A program made the position numbers and the translations under genes. From Sulfitobacter donghicola DSW-25 = KCTC 12864 = JCM 14565 (lineage in GTDB: Bacteria > Pseudomonadota > Alphaproteobacteria > Rhodobacterales > Rhodobacteraceae): DNA of 64,000 nucleotides. Under the pieces are notes generated by a model. It was not told the origin of the DNA and searched no databases. It saw only the letters and a program-made list of their open reading frames with translations. Location: positions 1,612,001-1,676,000 of the forward strand of contig NZ_JASF01000005.1 of the NCBI RefSeq assembly GCF_000622405.1. The letters are read 5' to 3'. Position 1 is the first letter of the stretch. Every line of letters begins with the position of its first letter. Below are positions 18,078-28,449 of the stretch, one piece after another.

Positions 18078-19550
18078 TTAAACGCTCATGCAGATGTATT
18101 TCATTTCCAGATAGTCTTCGATCCCGTGGTGGCTGCCTTCGCGGCCTAGGCCTGATTGTTTGACACCACCAAAGGGGGCTACCTCGGTTGATATGATGCC
18201 TGTGTTGACGCCTACGATGCCGTATTCCAATGCCTCTGCGACTTTGTAAACGCGGCTGAGGTCGTTGGCGTAGAAATAGCTGGCCAGACCAAAGATGGTG
18301 TCATTGGCCATGGCGATCACGTCATCAACGTCATCAAATTTGAACAGGGGCGCAAGCGGACCAAAGGTTTCTTCTTGGGCGACTTTCATGTCCTGTGTCA
18401 CACCTGTCATGATGGTCGGAGCGAGGAAGTTGCCGTCCATGGCGCCATTCGCACCCAACACGATTTCCGCGCCTTTGGCTTTTGCGTCGTCGATGTGCTC
18501 TTTGACCTTACTGCCAGCCTCTGGGGTGATCAACGGCCCTAGATCAACACCTGCTTCAAACCCATCACCGACCTTCATTTTTTCAACAGCAGCGGTCAGC
18601 TTTTTGGCGAAGGCGTCATAAACTCCCGACTGCACATAGATGCGGTTTGCGCAGACACACGTCTGGCCGTTGTTGCGGAACTTGCACAGGATGGCGCCTT
18701 CGACGGCGGCATCCAGATCGGCGTCATCAAACACGATAAATGGCGCGTTGCCGCCCAATTCCATCGAACACTTCATGACCTGATCAGCGGCTTGCTTCAT
18801 CAGGATGCGGCCAACTTCGGTAGAACCGGTAAAGGTCAGTTTGCGTACGGCAGGGTTTTCGCAGAACTCTTTGCCGATCGCAGAGGAGGAGCTGGACGGC
18901 ACCACGTTGAAAACGCCAGCGGGGATGCCCGCGCGTTCGGCCAACACCCCCATGACGATCGCGCTGAGCGGCGTTTCTGCAGCAGGGCGAGCAACAAAGG
19001 AACAGCCAGCGGCCAAGGCCGGTGCCGCCTTGCGTGTGATCATCGCGTTGGGGAAGTTCCAGGGAGTGATCGAAGCCGCCACACCGATGGGTTGCTTTAG
19101 GACTGTAATGCGCTTGTCACGCTGGTGACCTGGAATGGTTTCGCCATAGATGCGTTTGGCTTCTTCACCAAAGAATTCGATAAAGGACGCGCCATAAGCG
19201 ATTTCACCCTTTGCTTCGGCAAGGGGTTTGCCCTGCTCAGCGGTCAGGATCATGCCTAAATCGTCTTGGTTTGCCATCATCAGGTCGAACCATTTGCGCA
19301 GAACACCAGCGCGTTCTTTACCTGTCCAGCTTGCCCATTCTTTCTGTGCAGCTTCGGCTTGCGCAATGGCGCCAGCGACCTGAGCGCGACTCAGATCAGC
19401 GACTTTTGCAACGATATCGCCGCGCGACGGGTTGGTGACGTCGAATGTGCCGTCTTCCCCGTCGATCCATTTTCCGCCAACATAAGCACGTGTTTCCAAT
19501 AGGCTAGGGTCAGCTAGCATTGATTTTAGATCGGTCGTCAAAGCAGTCAT
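18078..19550 (-). CDS. gabD: Succinate-semialdehyde dehydrogenase (NAD(P)+)
   Basis: This enzyme oxidises succinate semialdehyde to succinate in the 4-aminobutyrate (GABA) shunt. The 490-residue protein (start MTALTTDLKSML, with GGAGAA 7 nt upstream) shows aldehyde dehydrogenase motifs: TPWNFPNAMITRK, FTGSTEVGRILM, catalytic Glu in MELGGNAPFIVFDDADLD, catalytic Cys in NNGQTCVCANR, and EETFGPLAPLFKF. The closing KQSGLGREGSHHGIEDYLEMKYIC is typical of GabD. An upstream ATG would add 13 residues but lacks the ribosome site. It stands alone; no gabT is in the window. Glutarate-semialdehyde dehydrogenase activity is possible. Confidence 0.93.
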   Translation of the reverse strand: MTALTTDLKSMLADPSLLETRAYVGGKWIDGEDGTFDVTNPSRGDIVAKVADLSRAQVAGAIAQAEAAQKEWASWTGKERAGVLRKWFDLMMANQDDLGMILTAEQGKPLAEAKGEIAYGASFIEFFGEEAKRIYGETIPGHQRDKRITVLKQPIGVAASITPWNFPNAMITRKAAPALAAGCSFVARPAAETPLSAIVMGVLAERAGIPAGVFNVVPSSSSSAIGKEFCENPAVRKLTFTGSTEVGRILMKQAADQVMKCSMELGGNAPFIVFDDADLDAAVEGAILCKFRNNGQTCVCANRIYVQSGVYDAFAKKLTAAVEKMKVGDGFEAGVDLGPLITPEAGSKVKEHIDDAKAKGAEIVLGANGAMDGNFLAPTIMTGVTQDMKVAQEETFGPLAPLFKFDDVDDVIAMANDTIFGLASYFYANDLSRVYKVAEALEYGIVGVNTGIISTEVAPFGGVKQSGLGREGSHHGIEDYLEMKYICMSV

Positions 19551-19632
19551 TGCGCATTCTCCTTGAATTCTTACTGGCAGGGAAATCAACTCTGGATATG
19601 ATTGTCCAGTTCGCTTTGAAAGGAACCACGGG

Positions 19633-20424
19633 ATGAAATTCGACGATGCTTATGCAAACGGGGCCTATATCGACGGGGCAGATGCCTATCCAGACCGTTG
19701 GGAAGAGGCGGCTTTAGCCTTTCGTGAAAAACTGGGCGCTCGGGCGCAGCTAGGTGTTTCATATGGGCCATCGGCGCGCCAAACATTCGATTTCTTTCAA
19801 CCGTCGGGCGTCGGGCGCGGAACCATGGTTTTTGTGCATGGTGGATATTGGAAAGCATTTGATAAATCTTCTTGGTCACATCTTGCGGCGGGGGCTTTGG
19901 CACGCGGATGGGCCGTTGCGATCCCAAGCTATGATTTATGCCCTGATGTGCGTATCGCCGATATAACGCGCCAAATCGCCGCTGCGGTAAGTAAGATTGC
20001 TGATCGAACATTTGGCCCGATGGCTTTGGCAGGGCATTCCGCGGGCGGGCATTTGGTATGCCGGATGACTGATCCGTTGATCCTGCCATCGGAAATCAGA
20101 GGGCGGATAAAACAGATTGTATCAATCTCTCCTGTCGCCGATTTGGAACCTTTGATGCAAACCACCATGAACGAGGATCTATATATTGATGCGGCAGAAG
20201 CAATTGCAGAAAGCCCCGTGAACATGCAGCCCCCCCATGGGTTGGATTTGACGATATGGGTTGGTGCAGATGAGCGCCCCGCGTTTTTGGAGCAATCTGA
20301 AAAATTGGCGCGAAGCTGGGGTGCAAAACGTGTGGCCGAAGAGGGGAAGCACCATTTTGATGTGATTGATTCATTAGCAGACCCAGATAGCCCGATGACC
20401 AAGGCGCTGTTGGGGTTAAAGTAG
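19633..20424 (+). CDS. Alpha/beta hydrolase, arylformamidase-like
   Basis: The 263-residue cytoplasmic protein has the HGGYW oxyanion motif (FVHGGYWKAFDKSSW) and the nucleophile elbow GHSAGGHL. It also has a late KHHFDVID segment carrying the likely catalytic His. HGGYW and the overall length match kynurenine formamidases and related esterases that hydrolyse N-formylkynurenine. No other kynurenine-pathway gene is near, so the substrate is uncertain. It is divergent from gabD, with about 80 bp between the starts. Confidence 0.8.
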   Translation: MKFDDAYANGAYIDGADAYPDRWEEAALAFREKLGARAQLGVSYGPSARQTFDFFQPSGVGRGTMVFVHGGYWKAFDKSSWSHLAAGALARGWAVAIPSYDLCPDVRIADITRQIAAAVSKIADRTFGPMALAGHSAGGHLVCRMTDPLILPSEIRGRIKQIVSISPVADLEPLMQTTMNEDLYIDAAEAIAESPVNMQPPHGLDLTIWVGADERPAFLEQSEKLARSWGAKRVAEEGKHHFDVIDSLADPDSPMTKALLGLK

Positions 20425-20520
20425 CACTATTTAACCGAGGTCATTTCGTGGCGGGGCTGTTCAGGCTTCACATTGTGGCGGTGTTTTGCAAAACTTCCCT
20501 CATAGAATGAATGCAGGGGA

Positions 20521-20537
20521 TGTAAATTCAGTTTACA
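20521..20537. promoter_or_regulatory. Inverted repeat in the promoter region of the unknown AAA+ cluster
   Basis: TGTAAA (20521-20526) and TTTACA (20532-20537) form a perfect inverted repeat with a 5-bp spacer, 43 bp before the ATG of the first cluster gene, in a 155-bp intergenic gap. This is a good position for an operator. The half-site does not match a regulator I can name with confidence. Confidence 0.45.
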
Positions 20538-20579
20538 TTGCCTATATATGTGAAAATAATTGATTATACGGAGTTTTTA

Positions 20580-21656
20580 ATGGCTAATCTCGATGCGCAG
20601 GTCCGCGAATCTCAGGCTCAGGTGGCCGAAGCACAAGGCAAAATTGCTGAGCTGACGAGCAGGATTGAAACAGCACGTGCCAAGCTGAAATCGGGCGAGG
20701 CGGCTGAAATTGATATCGAAAACGCCTCCCTTGAAGATGTGCACGCCCACACTGAGGTGATGAACGCCAATATTGCCGAACTGATTATGGGGCTCGACGA
20801 TGTTACTGCGGGCTTTTCCCGAGATTTTGACGAGATGCGCTCAAAGACCGGATGGGAAAGCATTATCGGCATTTTCTCTTCTGCAAAGTCTGACAGCATG
20901 CGCCAAGAGCGCGTTCGCTCGGCCTCGATCGACGACAAGTTGCAGGATCTGATCGCAAAGTCGGATACAATTGTTCAGCTTCTTGAAGGGCAGCTTGCCG
21001 TTTTGGAAGAGCAGAAAACCAAGGTTGAAGGCAATTTGGTCGAAACTCTGGATGACCGCGAAATGACTGTGGCCGAGCTGGAAGCGTTGCGCAACGATAT
21101 TGCTGGCATGGACCCAGAGATCATCAAGCTGGAAAATGCCATTGCCTCGGAAACGGATGCGGCAAAGCGTACGGCGTTGGAAACGCAATTGGCCGAGGCA
21201 AACAGCCGCTACAATGCGATGGTTCAGGAAGAGCAGGTAAAGCTTGCGAAATCCCAGACGTTGGAACGCTACATCGACAAAGGTAAAACTTGGGTAGACA
21301 GTTTGCAGAACCAAGCGGCGACCCAGATGGTGCTGATCAACAAATTGCAGACCGACACCAAACAGCGTGTCGTTCTGTACGATGCGTTGACCAAATCCCT
21401 AAAAACCGCGCAGCAACAGGATGTCGCGCACCGGATTAACGAGATCGGTGTAAAGACAGACCAAGAGGCGCAATCAGCGATGGCGGGTATTGGCTCTGCT
21501 ACCAATGCGCGTATGGCTGAAATGATGGAAAAGCACGAAGATCACATGGTGTTTGCCCGCGACGTGTTAGAGCAGAAAGCCAAAGCAGACGAACGTTTTG
21601 CGCGCCGTTTCCAAAAGATCATCGAAAAGCACGACAGCAATGCGTATGGCGAATGA
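20580..21656 (+). CDS. Long coiled-coil protein, first gene of unknown AAA+ cluster
   Basis: Starting at the ATG after CGGAG, the 358-residue protein is almost entirely helical, rich in Ala, Glu, Gln and Lys, with heptad patterns. It starts with ANLDAQVRESQAQVAEAQGK and continues through VQLLEGQLAVLEEQKTKVEG and LETQLAEANSRYNAM. It has no signal peptide and no membrane segment, so it is probably cytoplasmic or peripheral. The helix pattern faintly recalls TelA/toxic-anion-resistance proteins, but I see no decisive motif. An ORF start 42 bp upstream is less likely for want of a ribosome site. Its stop overlaps the next ORF, pointing to an operon. Confidence 0.85.
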   Translation: MANLDAQVRESQAQVAEAQGKIAELTSRIETARAKLKSGEAAEIDIENASLEDVHAHTEVMNANIAELIMGLDDVTAGFSRDFDEMRSKTGWESIIGIFSSAKSDSMRQERVRSASIDDKLQDLIAKSDTIVQLLEGQLAVLEEQKTKVEGNLVETLDDREMTVAELEALRNDIAGMDPEIIKLENAIASETDAAKRTALETQLAEANSRYNAMVQEEQVKLAKSQTLERYIDKGKTWVDSLQNQAATQMVLINKLQTDTKQRVVLYDALTKSLKTAQQQDVAHRINEIGVKTDQEAQSAMAGIGSATNARMAEMMEKHEDHMVFARDVLEQKAKADERFARRFQKIIEKHDSNAYGE

Positions 21657-21780
21657 TCCCGATGGCAAAACACCTGAAGTTGCCATAACCAAAACCACAA
21701 GGCGTTGGTTTAACTGGTCTTTGGTTTTTGATCTAATTCTGGTGATCCCACGTGAAATTATAGGTTGGGTAAGTCGATGA
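21646..21780 (+). CDS. 44-residue membrane protein of the AAA+ cluster
   Basis: The ATG at 21646 lies inside the end of the coiled-coil gene (11-bp overlap), and the TGA at 21778-21780 overlaps the next gene's ATG as ATGA. The peptide has a charged N-terminus (MANDPDGKTPEVAITKTTRR) and one hydrophobic segment (WFNWSLVFDLILVIPREIIGWV), so it is a likely single-pass membrane peptide. The overlaps at both ends make it likely to be real and translated together with its neighbours. Its function is unknown. Confidence 0.65.
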   Translation: MANDPDGKTPEVAITKTTRRWFNWSLVFDLILVIPREIIGWVSR

Positions 21781-22895
21781 CGGACCCAACCGCCGATCAT
21801 TACGGCCTAAAAGATACTTTCGCCAGCCGCCGTTACTTTGCCAAGTTTCAAGGCATCATGCAGCATATGCTGCGTGTTGCAGGTGTGATGGAGGCCGAAG
21901 GTAAACTGTCGCGTGACGAGGTGAATATCCTCGCAAGCTATGCGGTAAAACTGACCTATACATTCAAAGCGCTGAGTTGGAAGTACCTCTTGGTTGGGCG
22001 CGAAACAGGGCGCTTTTTCGGCTCTCTTATGATTGACGGCCGCGATAGTGGTTTTCCCGTCACCGAAGAATTGATGACCATGGCGAATGATGCACAACAG
22101 GCCAAGGTACATCTTTCGACAATGCCATCGGTTGAGGTGCACAAGGATCGTATGGTCCAGACCATCCTAAGCGAGCAAAAGCTGCCGACAAAACTCCAGT
22201 TTAGTCTCTCACAAAGGCTCTATTACGAGGAATTACTGAGGGGCGATCTGTTTTGGGTCCGCAATGATGCGCAGATCGAATGGATCGGTGAAAAGGATGG
22301 CCGTCGAAGCTATCGCATCCATTGGGCGACTTATGACAGCCAAGTGAACCTGCCAGTTATCTACATCATGGAGGTTGAGGATTCAGGCCGCGAAGCCTTG
22401 CCTCGCGATACGCGCAGATGGCCCGAAGTGCAGGCCCACCTCAGTGCGCAGGCGCTGGGCGGACTGAAGTTGGTGACCATCGCCCGTGGCTTTGACGAAG
22501 ACTTTGACGACCTGCACCCCAAACGCCTGCGCAGATTCCATTTGGGGCCAATGTATAGCCATGCGTATACCCGTCAAAACGGGCCGCTGCGCGATGTGCT
22601 GGCCGAGGCAAAAGCGCCCGAGGGCGATGATTGGGCGATGGTCTGGACCGAAGAAGATTTGCTGTCTGATAGCGTGATCCATGAAAAGTCAGGCTGGTTT
22701 TCAAAGGTCGAACGTCAGATTTTTGCGCTCGACCCAATGGGCGGGCAAATGCCCGACATGGGCGCGACAAGAACCGAGCGTAGCATCATCTTGCCCCAGC
22801 GCCCTTATCAAGTCCTCGAAGAACACAATCCGCCGGGGTTTGCCGGTGTGCGCAAATTTGTTGTGAACAACGCGGGGCGCGTATTGCAATATTAG
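21777..22895 (+). CDS. Protein of unknown function in the AAA+ cluster
   Basis: The 372-residue protein begins MTDPTADHYGLKDTFASRRYF at an ATG overlapping the preceding TGA. An N-terminal helical part (AGVMEAEGKLSRDEVNILAS) is followed by a mixed domain with VRNDAQIEWIGEKDGRRSYRI, LPVIYIMEVED and RRFHLGPMYSHAYTRQNG. It has no membrane segment or signal peptide. Conserved-looking blocks suggest an enzyme or adaptor domain, but I recognise no family. It lies directly upstream of the AAA+ gene (64-bp gap), suggesting a substrate-recognition or partner role. Confidence 0.8.
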   Translation: MTDPTADHYGLKDTFASRRYFAKFQGIMQHMLRVAGVMEAEGKLSRDEVNILASYAVKLTYTFKALSWKYLLVGRETGRFFGSLMIDGRDSGFPVTEELMTMANDAQQAKVHLSTMPSVEVHKDRMVQTILSEQKLPTKLQFSLSQRLYYEELLRGDLFWVRNDAQIEWIGEKDGRRSYRIHWATYDSQVNLPVIYIMEVEDSGREALPRDTRRWPEVQAHLSAQALGGLKLVTIARGFDEDFDDLHPKRLRRFHLGPMYSHAYTRQNGPLRDVLAEAKAPEGDDWAMVWTEEDLLSDSVIHEKSGWFSKVERQIFALDPMGGQMPDMGATRTERSIILPQRPYQVLEEHNPPGFAGVRKFVVNNAGRVLQY

Positions 22896-22959
22896 GCCTC
22901 GTATTTCCGAGCGTCAGATTTTTAGCCCAATGGCATTTTAGAATTTTGGAGAATTTATC

Positions 22960-24894
22960 ATGAGCCAAACATCAGATCAGATGGAACTCCGCGAAGAAGA
23001 CATCGCCAAACACATCAGCATGGCACAGTCACTGATCGAAGGGTTCGATCATGCGCCGCGCATTGGTAAATCGGCTGATGAACCCACACCCGAGCGTTCA
23101 TCGGGCGTTGGTACGCGTCGGCGTTTTCGGTCAACCACGCCAGGGTTGGTGACACAGCGGCGCACGGCCTCTGGCGCTGTTCAGTTGATCGCGCGGGTTG
23201 AGGGGGCTGACGATGACGATGCGTTGATGTCGCCGCTGCAATCTACAGTGCTTCACGCGCTGCGTCGCGCGATTGCCATTGCATTGGCCGTGGCCGAAAA
23301 CTTTGCCGAGCAGTCCAGCCTTGGCGATCTCAAACGCGCTAACCTCGAAGGGTCTCTTCCTGCGGCGCGCAAGGCCGAATTTTCCGAGCTGTTGGCGGCA
23401 GAGGCGCTTGTCACGCTATATGTCTTTGGCAATGCGACCGCCTATCTGTTGTCGTCCCACCTGACCGAAGCCACCGTTGAGGTTGGCGAGGTCGAAGAGG
23501 TGCTGACCGATAACGGCCAGACCGCGCTGCACGGCGCGCTGTGGGAGCTGGATCAGGACATCGCCGCTCATGCCCAAGATGACCCGCGCCTTGTCGCCAC
23601 GGTTAGCGCCTTTGCCGAAATGTTGATGGAAAAGGTCGCCCTTCGCGCCGCCTCTGCCCCGCGGCTAGAGGCGTTTTCGGCGGCCGCATGGCACGTCGAG
23701 GCGGATGATTTCACTGTGCGCGGGTTTAGCCCCGCGTCCAAGGCAAAGTCATCCAAGCTGACCATGACCTTCAAAAAACCGAATGAGGTTGTCGGCAACC
23801 ACATCGCAAAATATCAGGCGATGAAGCTGGCCAAAATGCTGATGGCCTATGACTTTGACCGCCGCTTGAACCCGTTTGCAGAACTTGGAGGGTTCATCTT
23901 TACCTTCATGGGGGATGGCGCACCGGGGACGGGTAAAACCACCCTGATCCAGATGATGGCGGGGCTGATTTCCGATTATTGCGGCAACGTGGATTACCCG
24001 TTCCGCTATCAAAACCTGAGCACCGATAACATCGACAGCTATCAGGGGAAATCGGGCCAGAACGCCAAGGCATTTATCAACAACGTGATTGATCCTTCGG
24101 TCATTGGCTTTGGCACGATCGACGATATCGACCAGCTGGCGGGTAAGCGGGGTGATCGCCAATCCAGCGCGGGCCAGTTGGAAATCACCGCTGTGCTGAT
24201 GGAGAGCTTTGCAGGCGCGAACACCGTTGTGCGCGGGAATTGCACCTTTGGCATGTTCTCGAACTATCCCGAAAACGTGGATGATGCGCTGCGCCAACGG
24301 GCGGGTGCGCGTTTCCTTGTGGATGGTCCGCAAACACGTGATGATTATGTCGATATCCTTTATCTGCTGATGGGCAAAAACCACGATATCCCGCTGGGCG
24401 ATCACGAGGTGTTTGAGGCGCAGGCAATCAAGAAAGCAGTCGCCGCATCGTTTGAAGGCCACTCAAAACCGCATGAAGCAGGGCTGCTCACCGTTTATGA
24501 CGCCGTGCGCGAAAAGGTCGGAGAGCTGGATACAATCAACAAGCTGGGCACCTACCTAAAAGGCATCCAAGAGGCCGACCCAAGGTTCACTGGACGCGCG
24601 ATTAAAAACATCACCGACGCGGTAAAAGTCCGCGCGATGGATTTTGAACTGCCCGATGAATGGATGGAACAACCCGACCTGTTCCTGTTCAAAAACTACG
24701 ATGAAAAGAAAGCAATGATCGAAGACATGCGCCAGCCGATCACGGTGGACATGGTCGTGCAAGAGATCAACCGCTACGCGGATTCCGAATTCCGCTATGC
24801 CGATAAATCGGATGAGGTGGCGATTGAAAACATGGTGCGGGATATGGGCCGGAGTGTTGAGGCGAAGAAGCGATTTTTAGGAGAAGATGGATGA
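22960..24894 (+). CDS. AAA+ ATPase of unknown cluster
   Basis: The 644-residue protein has an N-terminal half (about 1-300) with a basic, probably disordered stretch (RRRFRSTTPGLVTQRR) and helices. An AAA+ module follows. Walker A is GDGAPGTGKTT (318-328, Lys326), Walker B is GFGTIDDIDQ (Asp388, Asp389), sensor 1 is the Asn of FGMFSN (Asn435), and arginine-finger candidates are Arg445 and Arg447 in ALRQRAGARF. All catalytic residues look intact, so it is likely an active remodelling ATPase. It is the only obvious enzyme of the cluster. Its TGA overlaps the next ATG (ATGA). Confidence 0.9.
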   Translation: MSQTSDQMELREEDIAKHISMAQSLIEGFDHAPRIGKSADEPTPERSSGVGTRRRFRSTTPGLVTQRRTASGAVQLIARVEGADDDDALMSPLQSTVLHALRRAIAIALAVAENFAEQSSLGDLKRANLEGSLPAARKAEFSELLAAEALVTLYVFGNATAYLLSSHLTEATVEVGEVEEVLTDNGQTALHGALWELDQDIAAHAQDDPRLVATVSAFAEMLMEKVALRAASAPRLEAFSAAAWHVEADDFTVRGFSPASKAKSSKLTMTFKKPNEVVGNHIAKYQAMKLAKMLMAYDFDRRLNPFAELGGFIFTFMGDGAPGTGKTTLIQMMAGLISDYCGNVDYPFRYQNLSTDNIDSYQGKSGQNAKAFINNVIDPSVIGFGTIDDIDQLAGKRGDRQSSAGQLEITAVLMESFAGANTVVRGNCTFGMFSNYPENVDDALRQRAGARFLVDGPQTRDDYVDILYLLMGKNHDIPLGDHEVFEAQAIKKAVAASFEGHSKPHEAGLLTVYDAVREKVGELDTINKLGTYLKGIQEADPRFTGRAIKNITDAVKVRAMDFELPDEWMEQPDLFLFKNYDEKKAMIEDMRQPITVDMVVQEINRYADSEFRYADKSDEVAIENMVRDMGRSVEAKKRFLGEDG

Positions 24895-25178
24895 CGCTAT
24901 ATGTGATGATCGCGGTGGCATTGGCCGTGGGAATTTTCCTGCCGTTGCGGTGGCACCTGTGGGGGTTTCTGGCCGCGAGTGCCGCTCTCTTTATTGCGCA
25001 GGCGGGGGTTAGTACCGCAGGGGGCTATGAAGGGCTGCCGTTTGCGGAGACGCTGGTGTTTTTTAATGAATCATGGGCGTCTTATGTGGGGTATAATTTG
25101 CAACTCACCTACCGTGCATTTGCCCTGCCGTTGTTTGCCTTGGCGGTGCCGTTTGTGTTCCGTTTGGGCCGGTCGTGA
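24891..25178 (+). CDS. 95-residue membrane protein of the AAA+ cluster
   Basis: It starts at an ATGA overlap with the AAA+ gene. Three hydrophobic segments are visible: LYVMIAVALAVGIFLPL, WGFLAASAALFIAQAGV and ALPLFALAVPFVFRLG. Between the last two is a polar loop (GGYEGLPFAETLVFFNESW). The family is unknown. Coupling to the ATPase gene suggests that the ATPase works at or on the inner membrane. The following 48 bp lead into the Mrr-type endonuclease gene. Confidence 0.75.
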   Translation: MTLYVMIAVALAVGIFLPLRWHLWGFLAASAALFIAQAGVSTAGGYEGLPFAETLVFFNESWASYVGYNLQLTYRAFALPLFALAVPFVFRLGRS

Positions 25179-25226
25179 GAGCGTTGGGTCGGATGGAAAG
25201 TGGGAGCGGTATTTGGAGGGTAGGAG

Positions 25227-26147
25227 ATGAGTAGAACCTTCGAAATTGGAGAGAGTGGTTTCCCTGATTTAGCGGGCATGATGCTGATCACAATTCAGGC
25301 CTTAAAAGAAATGGGTGGCTCGGCTGCTATTTCTGAATTGGATGAAAAGGTTGCTGAGTTAGAAGGGTGCTCTGAAGAGGAGCAATCCTATATGATGTCG
25401 GACGGGAACAGTCCTCGGTTGAACTATTATTTGGCGTGGTCCCGAACTTATCTAAAAAAAGGGGGAGCATTAGAAAACTCAACAAAAGGAGTTTGGTCGC
25501 TAACCAGCGCTGGTTCTAATGTTACTTCGTACCAAAAATCCAAACACCTTTATGATCTTGTTCTAGCAGATGAGCGAGAGAAGGCCCGTGAAAAACGGCA
25601 AGCAAAGAATAAGAGCCTAGCTTTAGAAAAAGTTGTTGTCCCACAAGATGTTTCGGAGTCTAAAAATACACCCGATCGTCCATCTGAGCTGACTTGGGAT
25701 GAAGTGCTACTGTCCGTGCTGCGTAAAATGGACCCAAGTGCCTTTGAAAGGCTTGCTCAACGGCTTCTAAGGGAGGCTGGTTTTACAAAGGTTGAAGTGC
25801 GTGGAAAATCAGGGGACGGAGGCATTGACGGCGTCGGAGTTCTTCGGGTTAATCTGGTATCGTTCCAAGTATATTTCCAATGTAAACGGTACAAAGGTGG
25901 CGTTGCTGCAGGGGAAATTCGGGATTTTCGGGGGGCAATGCAAGGGCGGGCGGATAAAGGGTTGTTTATTACAACAGGCCATTACACTGCCCAAGCTCGT
26001 GACGAGGCTACTCGGGATGGTGCTACGGCGTTGGACTTGATTGATGGTCCGCGGCTTTGTGAGCTTTTGAAGGAAAATGGACTAGGTGTTTCGACGAAGA
26101 TGGTTGAACAGGTCCATATTGATACATCATGGTTTGAGGGTATTTAG
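25227..26147 (+). CDS. mrr: Mrr-type restriction endonuclease inserted in the AAA+ cluster
   Basis: The 306-residue protein has an N-terminal winged-helix domain as in Mrr proteins (DLAGMMLITIQALKEMGG, then YYLAWSRTYLKKGGALEN). From about residue 165 a PD-(D/E)xK nuclease domain follows: DPSAFERLAQRLLREAGF, GDGGIDG with Asp201, and FQCKRYKG with Gln218 and Lys220. Mrr enzymes are type IV restriction enzymes cutting modified foreign DNA. The gene is visibly richer in A/T and uses different codons (TTA, AAA, GGA) from the flanking genes, and it separates genes otherwise joined by overlaps. It probably entered by horizontal transfer. Its TAG is directly followed by the ATG of the next gene. Confidence 0.88.
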   Translation: MSRTFEIGESGFPDLAGMMLITIQALKEMGGSAAISELDEKVAELEGCSEEEQSYMMSDGNSPRLNYYLAWSRTYLKKGGALENSTKGVWSLTSAGSNVTSYQKSKHLYDLVLADEREKAREKRQAKNKSLALEKVVVPQDVSESKNTPDRPSELTWDEVLLSVLRKMDPSAFERLAQRLLREAGFTKVEVRGKSGDGGIDGVGVLRVNLVSFQVYFQCKRYKGGVAAGEIRDFRGAMQGRADKGLFITTGHYTAQARDEATRDGATALDLIDGPRLCELLKENGLGVSTKMVEQVHIDTSWFEGI

Positions 26148-27515
26148 ATGAACCGCCTCATCCGCGCCGGCCTGATGTTCGGCAACCTCTTTCATGTCCA
26201 CTCGCCCGCGCTGGTCGAGCGGTATAACCGCGCGCTGCATCATCTGACGGGGCAGCGGACGAAGCTCTCTGATTTCTACGTCGATATCTCTGGCTATTCG
26301 CCCGAGGTCGGGGATGAGTTGGGCGATCCGCTGTATCTCAACCACAAGGGCGTGAACCGTCAGTTTATCTTGCTGAGTGTGGATCAGCGTACGGCGCCGC
26401 TGCTCAATACGCAGTTCTCGACCTCCAAGGCGATTTTGCAGGAGTTCATCGCGGAAAACGAGGCGGCGCTGTTTGCCCTCACGGCCAAGGATGCCGTCGC
26501 GGGAGAGCTGGTGAACTCGGTCTATGATGTGTCTGACCCCAAGCGCCTGTTTGATATTCGCCGCATCACGATTGACGCCGACACCACAGGCGGCACCGTC
26601 AAAGACGCATCCAAACTGGCCGAGATGGTGGACCAGTTTCGCGATACCGATGACGGGTGGTACGATGATGTGCTCATCGCCGAGATGATCTCGCTTGCGG
26701 GTAAGACGGGGGATGTTGTGCGCAATCCGGTCAAGCTCAAATCCATGAGCTTTGATCAGCGCAATTTCTGGACGGCGCATTTTGGCGGGCTCTATGTGTT
26801 TCAGGATGTCGAGCACCCCGCCGTGATCGCCAGTGAAAGCAAAGAAGACCTTGGCGATATTCCGATGGAGTATGTGTTCGACACCTCCCAACGTAACCGC
26901 ATCGCCCAGTTCTTTCGCCTGAACGGGTTGACCGAAACCATCCTAGAGGCGCGGGGGATTAAATCGGCTGCGATCCTGCGGCAAAAGTTGGACTTTGTCC
27001 TGATTGACGCGGTGGCGGGGCAGGGCGCTGATCTGAGCGACCTGAGCCGTGGTGATCTGCGCCGCCTTGCGCGCCAGCATGCGGATAAACTACCGCCCGA
27101 ATTCCACACGCTGGGGCAGTTGGTGAATTGGGCCGAAAATGGCGGTGCTTTTCCCAGCATCGACAGCGATGATCCGGTGTATTTCTATACGCTGCGCGCC
27201 GCCGATACGCCGGATGCCGAGCTGGTGAATATGCTGCTGGCGCAGCTTGCGCCAAAGGACATCCGCCAGCTGTTTATCTGCCACAAAGACCTGTTCTATG
27301 AGACTTATGCAGGCTGGCCCGAGGCCAAAAAGGCCTATGTTGCTGATTTTCTTGAGCGCGAGTATCAGGTGGACAAGGCGGGGGTGCGTGACGCACTATT
27401 TGGTCATGAACCCGCGTTAGAGGCACCACCGCTGCCACGTAAACGCAAAAAACCACCCCCCGTGCCGGACCGCATCGCGGCAGTTGGCCCTTGGGGCGCT
27501 GTGAAGAGGAGATAG
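26148..27515 (+). CDS. Protein of unknown function in the AAA+ cluster (possibly DUF6638)
   Basis: The 455-residue protein begins MNRLIRAGLMFGNLFHVHSP, and its ATG directly follows the Mrr stop. It has blocks such as KLSDFYVDISGYSPEVGDEL, LNHKGVNRQFILLSVDQR and GQLVNWAENGGAFPSID, plus a long helical C-terminal part ending in a Pro/Lys-rich tail (PPLPRKRKKPPPVPDR). I see no membrane helix and no catalytic motif. It may be the family called DUF6638, of which I am not certain. Base composition again resembles the AAA+ gene rather than Mrr. Confidence 0.82.
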   Translation: MNRLIRAGLMFGNLFHVHSPALVERYNRALHHLTGQRTKLSDFYVDISGYSPEVGDELGDPLYLNHKGVNRQFILLSVDQRTAPLLNTQFSTSKAILQEFIAENEAALFALTAKDAVAGELVNSVYDVSDPKRLFDIRRITIDADTTGGTVKDASKLAEMVDQFRDTDDGWYDDVLIAEMISLAGKTGDVVRNPVKLKSMSFDQRNFWTAHFGGLYVFQDVEHPAVIASESKEDLGDIPMEYVFDTSQRNRIAQFFRLNGLTETILEARGIKSAAILRQKLDFVLIDAVAGQGADLSDLSRGDLRRLARQHADKLPPEFHTLGQLVNWAENGGAFPSIDSDDPVYFYTLRAADTPDAELVNMLLAQLAPKDIRQLFICHKDLFYETYAGWPEAKKAYVADFLEREYQVDKAGVRDALFGHEPALEAPPLPRKRKKPPPVPDRIAAVGPWGAVKRR

Positions 27516-27519
27516 GCCG

Positions 27520-27786
27520 ATGTTCGCACTTGCCCGATTGATGGTTGTCGGATTCATCGTGCTGTCGGTGATCTATGTCTGCCTGTCGCTCTATTCCCGC
27601 GCGGTGCGCAAAGGTAAGCTGCGTGCCGAATGGCATGAGGGACCACAGGACCAGACATTGGAAGAGTTTTTGGACGAGGGGCTGGAGGACTATGACCAAT
27701 CCTTGCGCCGAAAATTGATCCTGTCTGTCTATGTTATTCCGGTGATCCTTGTGTCAGTGATCATCTATCTTACAAATTTTAGTTAA
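27520..27786 (+). CDS. 88-residue two-helix membrane protein
   Basis: Only 4 bp separate it from the preceding gene, and AGGAGA lies before its ATG. It has a membrane helix at each end (LARLMVVGFIVLSVIYVCLSLY and LILSVYVIPVILVSVIIYLTNF) joined by an acidic loop (DQTLEEFLDEGLEDYDQS). With both helices crossing, this loop is likely cytoplasmic. It is conserved-looking and in operon position between the 455-residue protein and the DUF1523 gene. Its function is unknown. Confidence 0.75.
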   Translation: MFALARLMVVGFIVLSVIYVCLSLYSRAVRKGKLRAEWHEGPQDQTLEEFLDEGLEDYDQSLRRKLILSVYVIPVILVSVIIYLTNFS

Positions 27787-27797
27787 AAGGGTTCCAC

Positions 27798-28430
27798 ATG
27801 TTTGGTCTTATCCGTTGGGTGTTTTGGATTACGGTTTGGGTGCTGATCGCAGCGACCTTCCACTATACGCTCCCGCAAGTTGACATCGTTCGGGTTACGG
27901 ACACCTATGAAAAACGTGTCGACCCAGGTGAGAACTCGATGTTTTGGGCGCAGGCTGATGTTGGGTCTGATGGGACGGTCGCGAACCGCGATGTGTTTTT
28001 TATCCAGACGCGCCGCGTTAAGGGCGATGTGATGGTCTACCGCAATGAAGACACGGGTTGGGGATGGCCGCCGTATTTTAAATTCGACACGTCCAACCTG
28101 CAGGCTGAGGCGGGGGATTTGAAATCAACCGAGGAAGAGCCCCGTTATGTCGCGATCAAACACTACGGCTGGCGCAATGAGTTCCTGACAATTTTCCCGA
28201 ATGCGATCAGCGTAAAGCCTGTGGATGGGCCTGATGCGTCCAAAGGTATCCCGTGGCTGAACATCTTTATCATCACCATCTTCTTGACGGTGGTTTATGG
28301 GATCTGGGTGCGCTGGCGTCGGTTCCGCATTGCGCGGATCGATCCGACCATGGAAGCGATCGAAGATGATCTGGCCGATGCGTCGGGTGCTGTTTCCAGC
28401 TGGCTAGGATCGTGGCGTAAAAAGAGCTAG
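27798..28430 (+). CDS. DUF1523 family membrane protein
   Basis: The 210-residue protein has an N-terminal membrane helix (IRWVFWITVWVLIAATFHYTL), a polar domain with the DTYEKRVDPGENSMFW and RDVFFIQTRRVKGDVMVYRNEDTGWGWPPYFKFDT blocks that I associate with DUF1523, and a second helix (WLNIFIITIFLTVVYGIWVRW). The middle domain probably lies in the periplasm. It closes the AAA+ cluster; its stop codon lies inside the terminator hairpin. Its function is not known to me. Confidence 0.85.
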   Translation: MFGLIRWVFWITVWVLIAATFHYTLPQVDIVRVTDTYEKRVDPGENSMFWAQADVGSDGTVANRDVFFIQTRRVKGDVMVYRNEDTGWGWPPYFKFDTSNLQAEAGDLKSTEEEPRYVAIKHYGWRNEFLTIFPNAISVKPVDGPDASKGIPWLNIFIITIFLTVVYGIWVRWRRFRIARIDPTMEAIEDDLADASGAVSSWLGSWRKKS

Positions 28431-28449
28431 GGCCGCCCCAGCTCTTTTT
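28419..28449. terminator. Bidirectional terminator ending the AAA+ cluster
   Basis: AAAAAGAGCT (28419-28428) pairs perfectly with AGCTCTTTTT (28440-28449) around an 11-nt GC-rich loop, giving a U-run in both directions. It serves the DUF1523 gene (whose TAG overlaps it) and the convergent HIT gene. Confidence 0.85.

Follow-up and report, generated by a model that had tools for sequence, protein, structure and literature searches.

In the cyclic oligonucleotide-based anti-phage signalling system (CBASS), a conserved core is combined with exchangeable effectors, and a cyclase (CD-NTase) and a cyclic-nucleotide effector stand beside a TRIP13-like ATPase. Type I restriction or similar operons can also carry embedded defence genes, and membrane remodelling of the ESCRT-III/Vps4 or PspA type pairs a coiled coil of the ESCRT-III/PspA family with an MIT-type AAA partner. 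Here we compare with these systems an operon at 20521–28449 of a 64,000-nucleotide stretch of the genome of Sulfitobacter donghicola DSW-25 (the window, to which coordinates refer unless another locus is named), where a first-pass annotation had described eight genes in one direction, among them an AAA+ ATPase, as a cluster of unknown function. The cluster is real, but its natural unit differs from those eight genes. It has a core of four, which encode a coiled-coil protein of 358 residues (20580–21656), a 372-residue protein (21777–22895), an AAA+ ATPase of 644 residues (22960–24894) and a DUF6638 protein of 455 residues (26148–27515), with variable slots between them. We tentatively read this locus of marine bacteria of the Roseobacter group as modular: an ATP-driven chassis whose cassettes can be exchanged and probably act against phage.

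Our sample consisted of 196 genomes of the order Rhodobacterales, this one included, and the loci compared numbered about 150: 70 that were fetched and 80 further named loci from Sulfitobacter, Tateyamaria, Ruegeria, Roseovarius, Shimia and others. The four-gene core is all-or-none, being present in about 113 of the 196 genomes. Matches to the AAA+ ATPase and to DUF6638 were each found in 113 genomes and matches to the coiled-coil protein in 114, and the genomes listed for the three coincide save for one weak coiled-coil match (28% identity) in G018. Within the genus, 8 of 13 genomes possess the gene set. The four core genes are followed by a DUF1523 gene in an identical order and direction in all 70 fetched loci, with a gene for an 88-residue protein between DUF6638 and DUF1523 in 69 of them, while 71 of the 80 named loci are complete and ordered and six of the remaining nine are interrupted by a contig end. 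At three loci (L132, L164 and L183) the AAA+ gene has no DUF6638 gene within about 5 kb, and at L164 the coiled-coil and 372-residue genes are also missing from its vicinity; here the operon may have been divided or rearranged, or a large segment may have been inserted. In genome G123 (contig C52), the coiled-coil, AAA+ and DUF6638 genes were found only as fragments, close together on one contig, in an apparent decay of the whole operon.

The core also extends well beyond this order. A protein search of plasmid records recovered the AAA+ ATPase in ten records of Sinorhizobium, Shinella, Rhizobium and Vibrio at 40–53% identity, and the order of coiled-coil, 372-residue, AAA+ and DUF6638 genes was kept in all 12 distant loci obtained from plasmid records and from a draw of genomes across the phylum. 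Among these 12, the 88-residue and DUF1523 genes were found solely in L216, a locus from another class of the same phylum. This carries a complete Rhodobacteraceae-type operon, with an AAA+ ATPase that is 70% identical and a slot of about 9 base pairs (bp), which suggests acquisition by horizontal transfer. The four-gene core is older than the Rhodobacteraceae-type operon, and the 88-residue and DUF1523 genes are a Rhodobacteraceae extension of it. In the nine rhizobial-type loci (L202–L204 and L217–L222) DUF6638 is followed, in eight cases, by a DUF2333 gene. In the Vibrio records L201 and L205, mfd lies directly 3' of the four-gene core.

The eight open reading frames (ORFs) of the first-pass annotation all lie on the forward strand where it had placed them, and the overlaps that it gave at 21646, 21777 and 24891 are present in the sequence; it had overlooked a ninth gene inside the run (25227–26147), which thus holds nine. 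As a conserved unit the eight do not hold together: the genes for a 44-residue peptide (21646–21780, from translation), for a 95-residue protein (TM95, 24891–25178) and for the overlooked protein, an Mrr-type endonuclease, are variable among related loci. The annotation had reckoned that conservation of only a few genes with the rest variable would speak against its proposal, and this is in part what we find, four genes being universal, two being of the Rhodobacteraceae type and the rest occupying slots.

The interval between the AAA+ and DUF6638 genes, which we call slot C, ranges from 28 to 2382 bp across 138 distinct loci, with a median of 692. The next two junctions measure at most 41 and at most 21 bp (69 loci). 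Slot C ORFs of at least 90 residues, 166 in number, fell into 66 BLAST clusters (duplicates retained), with TM95 belonging to a cluster of 12 members. The 79 slot C ORFs of at least 140 residues have a guanine-plus-cytosine (GC) content on average 10 points below that of the core, 84% of them by more than 5 points; in the 87 smaller ones, many of which encode proteins with three to four transmembrane segments, GC is not lowered relative to the core. Among pairs of loci whose AAA+ genes are 88–91% identical in DNA, only 8 of 135 share a homologous slot ORF. The contrast between cassette and core is strongest within genera such as Ruegeria, since the sharing of slot ORFs is lowest at this level of identity. 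Of 75 large cassettes at distinct loci, 31 have an ATGA overlap with the AAA+ stop codon, 43 have one with the start codon of DUF6638, and 27 adjoin both genes. The 3' end of the AAA+ gene often reads CTGGAGGGGAAGGGG-TGA, a sequence that could act as a ribosome-binding site for the next gene. Slots A (between the coiled-coil and 372-residue genes) and B (between the 372-residue and AAA+ genes) are variable too, and take different, mostly small ORFs. The 44-residue peptide of slot A, for example, had a relative by tblastn in one of the 80 named loci (L116, 41% identity) and in none of the 70 fetched loci; its designation as a membrane peptide is uncertain, as no segment exceeds the hydropathy threshold for a transmembrane helix.

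The domains found in 71 GC-poor cassettes of at least 120 residues were Mrr, putAbiC, AbiJ_NTD4 and DUF2971 (two cassettes each), together with RNase_T with BRCT, DUF3825 and HATPase_c_2 (one each). At most about 11 of the 71 matched a Pfam family, and 71 random ORFs from the flanks, used as a control, gave 69 Pfam families. Mrr, DUF2971 and exonuclease cassettes matched single-gene candidates of PADLOC. A family defined by clustering of slot ORFs (family X, 20 members) looks dedicated to the slot; it has a conserved N-terminal module with two transmembrane segments (mean identity 40%) and a divergent C-terminal part (16%). In the 196 genomes all 15 matches to this family below 1e-30 lie between AAA+ and DUF6638 genes, and eight of these were not rows of the query profile. 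One member (L082) carries putAbiC, and among 56 database relatives three go by the name ‘putative phage abortive infection protein’. In the window, the product of the second slot C gene, at 306 residues, is an Mrr-type restriction endonuclease (type IV-like) by its sequence, with both domains above the curated cut-off (Mrr_cat, 2.8e-31; Mrr_N, 2e-17) and a PADLOC match to mREase_IV (8.7e-30). It resembles Mrr/type IV restriction endonucleases in carrying both Mrr domains, but it differs in being one cassette of this operon, whereas most of its close relatives lie outside the slot. An endonuclease-domain gene occupies slot C in three of the nine rhizobial-type loci. In the Sinorhizobium meliloti locus L202 (11106–12851 of that locus), an endonuclease-domain gene stands together with an IS4-type transposase between the AAA+ and DUF6638 genes.

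Divergence of family X is uncorrelated with that of the neighbouring AAA+ protein (rho 0.13, n 136), as compared with a rho of 0.65 between AAA+ and DUF6638. At L140 and L141, for instance, AAA+ proteins that are 96% identical accompany X proteins that are 38% identical. A few loci also bear scars. In 2 of 138 (L153 and L169) a second, partial AAA+ tail lies directly upstream of the cassette, and in another 2 of 138 (L051 and L069) a fragment of the DUF6638 head lies inside the slot. Such scars point to the movement of cassettes from one copy of this operon to another, and do so only for the few loci that bear them. In genome G076 a TM95-like ORF is followed by an AAA-tail fragment and then by Mrr, and L151 has a very similar AAA-tail-to-Mrr junction as an intact arrangement. 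The window is built along similar lines. TM95, which is joined to the AAA+ gene by ATGA and is predicted to have two transmembrane segments, is followed by a 46-bp stretch directly before Mrr (25185–25230) that resembles, by local alignment, the 3' end of a foreign AAA+ gene, with a score of 42 to the AAA+ tail of L159 versus 15 to its own; of 600 control stretches, one reached 42 (scoring 45). Given this L159-like tail and the junctions of G076 and L151, the Mrr cassette of the window probably came from the operon of another lineage and was stacked behind TM95.

The motif residues that the first-pass annotation gave for the AAA+ ATPase (K326, D388-D389, N435, R445 and R447) are all in place, and its match to PF00004 is above the curated cut-off (2.5e-11). 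Walker A, the sensor Asn and the arginine fingers are those of an AAA ATPase, and none of these six residues changes across the 19 rows of a Rhodobacteraceae alignment or the 8 rows of another with Vibrio, Sinorhizobium, Shinella and Rhizobium. In AAA ATPases the usual Walker B motif is DE, with a catalytic Glu. Here this Glu is absent and the motif reads IDD, with Asp389 in its place in every row of both alignments (19 of 19 and 8 of 8). The N-terminal region of about 300 residues has no family match in Pfam. Among PDB sequences the weak relatives are the ATPase domain of an i-AAA protease (4.6e-4), a fidgetin-like protein (0.06), katanin (0.07) and Vps4 (0.82); Walker A, the sensor Asn and the arginines of these proteins are kept, but the window's protein differs from them in its Walker B motif and its N-terminus. 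Public sources call several close database relatives EcfA2, after the ATP-binding protein of the energy-coupling factor transporter, a name that looks wrong because the sequence motifs are of the AAA ATPase type.

The coiled-coil protein is 38–44% identical in Vibrio and Rhizobiaceae and contains a single proline, P179, which is invariant in the 19-row alignment. It has no match to the TelA family profile (PF05816), and the TelA gene of this genome lies elsewhere (G000:C5:500225). Nor did the coiled-coil protein or the AAA+ ATPase match an ESCRT-III/PspA-type family in Pfam, with Vps4 reaching just 0.82 for the latter. For the 372-residue protein, which lies outside Pfam families, the AlphaFold model (mean predicted local distance difference test score, pLDDT, 88.9) has a helical N-terminal half, followed by a C-terminal part in which the order of strands and helices (residues 162–305) gives a T-fold-like bb-aa-bb topology. 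A comparison with PDB folds gave nothing significant, and T-fold enzymes (QueF-like, GTP cyclohydrolase, uricase, PTPS, DHNA) dominate the weak matches of this part; the modelled resemblance is a lead. The 455-residue protein, present as an ORF, had been listed as unknown but belongs to a named family, DUF6638 (PF20343, 1e-222). Its AlphaFold model is confident (pLDDT 84.4), without a significant match among PDB folds (VIA shows short matches only). Downstream, the 88-residue protein (27520–27786) and the DUF1523 protein of 210 residues (27798–28430; PF07509, 7.8e-69) are each predicted to have two transmembrane segments.

The operon resembles CBASS in having a conserved core with a variable co-directional gene, and its AAA+ ATPase has a weak PADLOC match to TRIP13 (3.3e-5). 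However, the putative effector lies in the middle of the operon, and our searches showed no relationship between the core proteins and those of CBASS. No cyclase (CD-NTase), cyclic-nucleotide effector or HORMA-type family was found with Pfam, NCBIfam or PADLOC in any of the window's nine proteins, so that the TRIP13 match is the sole trace of CBASS and the operon is not assigned to it. The other PADLOC matches of the core are also weak (AAA+ to IetA, 0.016; coiled coil to JetC, 2e-4). With cargo-bearing type I restriction operons the locus has in common a variable, co-directional cargo inside an otherwise conserved operon, but here the host operon stands outside known defence systems and family X looks dedicated to the slot. 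The claim of the first-pass annotation that no named system has this composition stands to the extent that an AAA+ gene set which keeps its order and comes with small membrane proteins is unmatched in Pfam, NCBIfam, PADLOC, and PDB sequences and folds. Within open-licence literature in PubMed Central, we found no paper on DUF6638, four for DUF1523 and, by title or abstract, nothing on this operon. Among the S. meliloti locus tags that we presume to correspond to it, there was one mention, of SMc02733 as a ChvI-bound fragment, without a function, and this may not be the same operon.

The first-pass annotation had framed the run by an inverted repeat and a bidirectional terminator, and both are present. 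The upstream inverted repeat (20521–20537) is real and conserved across loci: it is an operator-like dyad, TGTAAATTCAGTTTACA, 59 bases upstream of the coiled-coil ATG and followed by CCTATAT. That ATG, at 20580, is conserved among orthologues, and an alternative TTG start at 20538, which would overlap the inverted repeat, was rejected. The pattern TGTAAA-N5-TTTACA, with at most two mismatches and within 300 bp upstream of the coiled-coil gene, was found in 83 of 146 loci versus none of 146 shuffles; with at most three mismatches it occurs at −66 to −40 in 77 of 138 distinct upstream regions, at −62 to −58 in 73 of these. CC(T/C)ATAT follows the conserved dyad before the coiled-coil gene (window 20520–20547). 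The exact pattern occurs once in this genome and at additional places in G107 and G147. At the other end, a bidirectional terminator with a perfect 10-bp stem (AAAAAGAGCT/AGCTCTTTTT) lies at 28419–28449. As in the window (18078–20424), the operon is preceded in many other genera by aldehyde-dehydrogenase-like and hydrolase-like genes, a hint that its chromosomal position is old.

Any account of the locus has to start from its anatomy, the co-occurrence of its genes, the variability of its slots, the ATGA junctions and, in a few loci, the scars. In the reading that we tentatively favour, the coiled-coil, 372-residue, AAA+ and DUF6638 proteins would form the chassis, extended by two membrane proteins in Rhodobacteraceae, and this would most likely be an ATP-driven, membrane-associated assembly. 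A similar machine had been proposed for all eight annotated genes; that all eight act as one is unsupported, and membrane association is inferred from predicted transmembrane segments. The cassette gene, set between those for AAA+ and DUF6638, is often coupled in translation to one or both of them. Its product, whether a nuclease, an Abi/HEPN-like protein or a protein with two transmembrane segments and a cytoplasmic part that varies, would serve in defence against phage as an exchangeable effector or as the part that confers specificity. Recombination within the core genes on either side would bring cassettes in from other operon copies and leave scars of an AAA tail or a DUF6638 head, and the rapid swapping of cassettes would be the mark of an arms race, with phage pressure as its driver. 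A bolder version, which strikes us as rather unlikely, is that the locus represents a new class of immunity: a four-part AAA+ chassis (coiled coil, T-fold-like protein, AAA+ ring and DUF6638) that accepts plug-in effectors, with family X providing a docking module of two transmembrane segments that links hypervariable sensor or effector domains, and with cassettes exchanged by recombination in flanking core genes, of which the AAA-tail scars would be fossils. Much less is to be said for the idea that most of the slot ORFs are chance reading frames in intergenic DNA that drifts rapidly. The ORFs were chosen mechanically as the longest frames, and in GC-rich loci some of the long ones are probably not genuine, but curated-family matches, ATGA junctions, scars, families common to several genera and the database relatives of family X, three of them named as phage abortive infection proteins, make this explanation very improbable.

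A number of observations weigh against the favoured reading. Slot C measures at most 160 bp in 15 of 138 loci, and the Vibrio and most rhizobial-type loci lack a cassette, so the chassis can do without one. The sharing of slot ORFs is non-monotonic across AAA+ identity, at 7 of 29 pairs (85–88%), 16 of 68 (80–85%) and 211 of 1795 (75–80%), with 2 of 3 among the closest pairs. Strong Mrr relatives occur in nine genomes, two in the slot and seven elsewhere, several of them broken or partial; of seven strong matches to another cassette family (family Y), two lie elsewhere and five in the slot, and family X has seven weak matches outside it. The control ORFs from the flanks themselves gave six PADLOC families, with one member each and a best value of 4e-14, making the contrast with the cassettes modest. 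The core has no strong PADLOC match, and the chassis mostly occupies a chromosomal position that looks vertically inherited, in contrast to mobile defence islands. It is nearly as likely that the chassis performs a non-immune job, such as the remodelling of the envelope or of protein complexes, and that the translationally coupled AAA+/DUF6638 junction is a docking site, favoured for carrying and expressing stand-alone, single-gene defence systems. Such a docking site would better explain the empty slots, the cassette-free Vibrio loci and the location of Mrr relatives mostly elsewhere than a chassis working with its cassettes would, and the PADLOC single-gene candidates among the cassettes and the lack of a strong PADLOC match to the core are in keeping with it. 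A general docking site does not, however, predict a family X whose strong matches in 196 genomes are all in the slot, nor does it account for slots A and B holding ORFs of other kinds; a family dedicated to the slot is easier to understand as a working partner of the chassis. The same family, in which a conserved N-terminal module precedes a C-terminal part that varies, and the small transmembrane proteins beside larger cassettes could also suit polymorphic competition, in which cassettes would be toxins or immunity proteins against neighbouring bacteria that the chassis delivers or activates, but no secretion apparatus or known toxin domain was found among the scanned cassettes and many loci have a single cassette with no obvious partner, so that we regard this as improbable.

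If the cassettes depend on the chassis, as in the reading of a modular chassis with exchangeable parts, the operon would be an undescribed modular immune machine in 113 of the 196 sampled genomes of the order, and its slot would be a catalogue of effectors. If instead the junction is a docking site, an ordinary operon would have become a niche for defence genes, with the scars showing how cassettes are exchanged, and the slot would offer a way to mine new defence genes, given that few GC-poor cassettes have a Pfam family.

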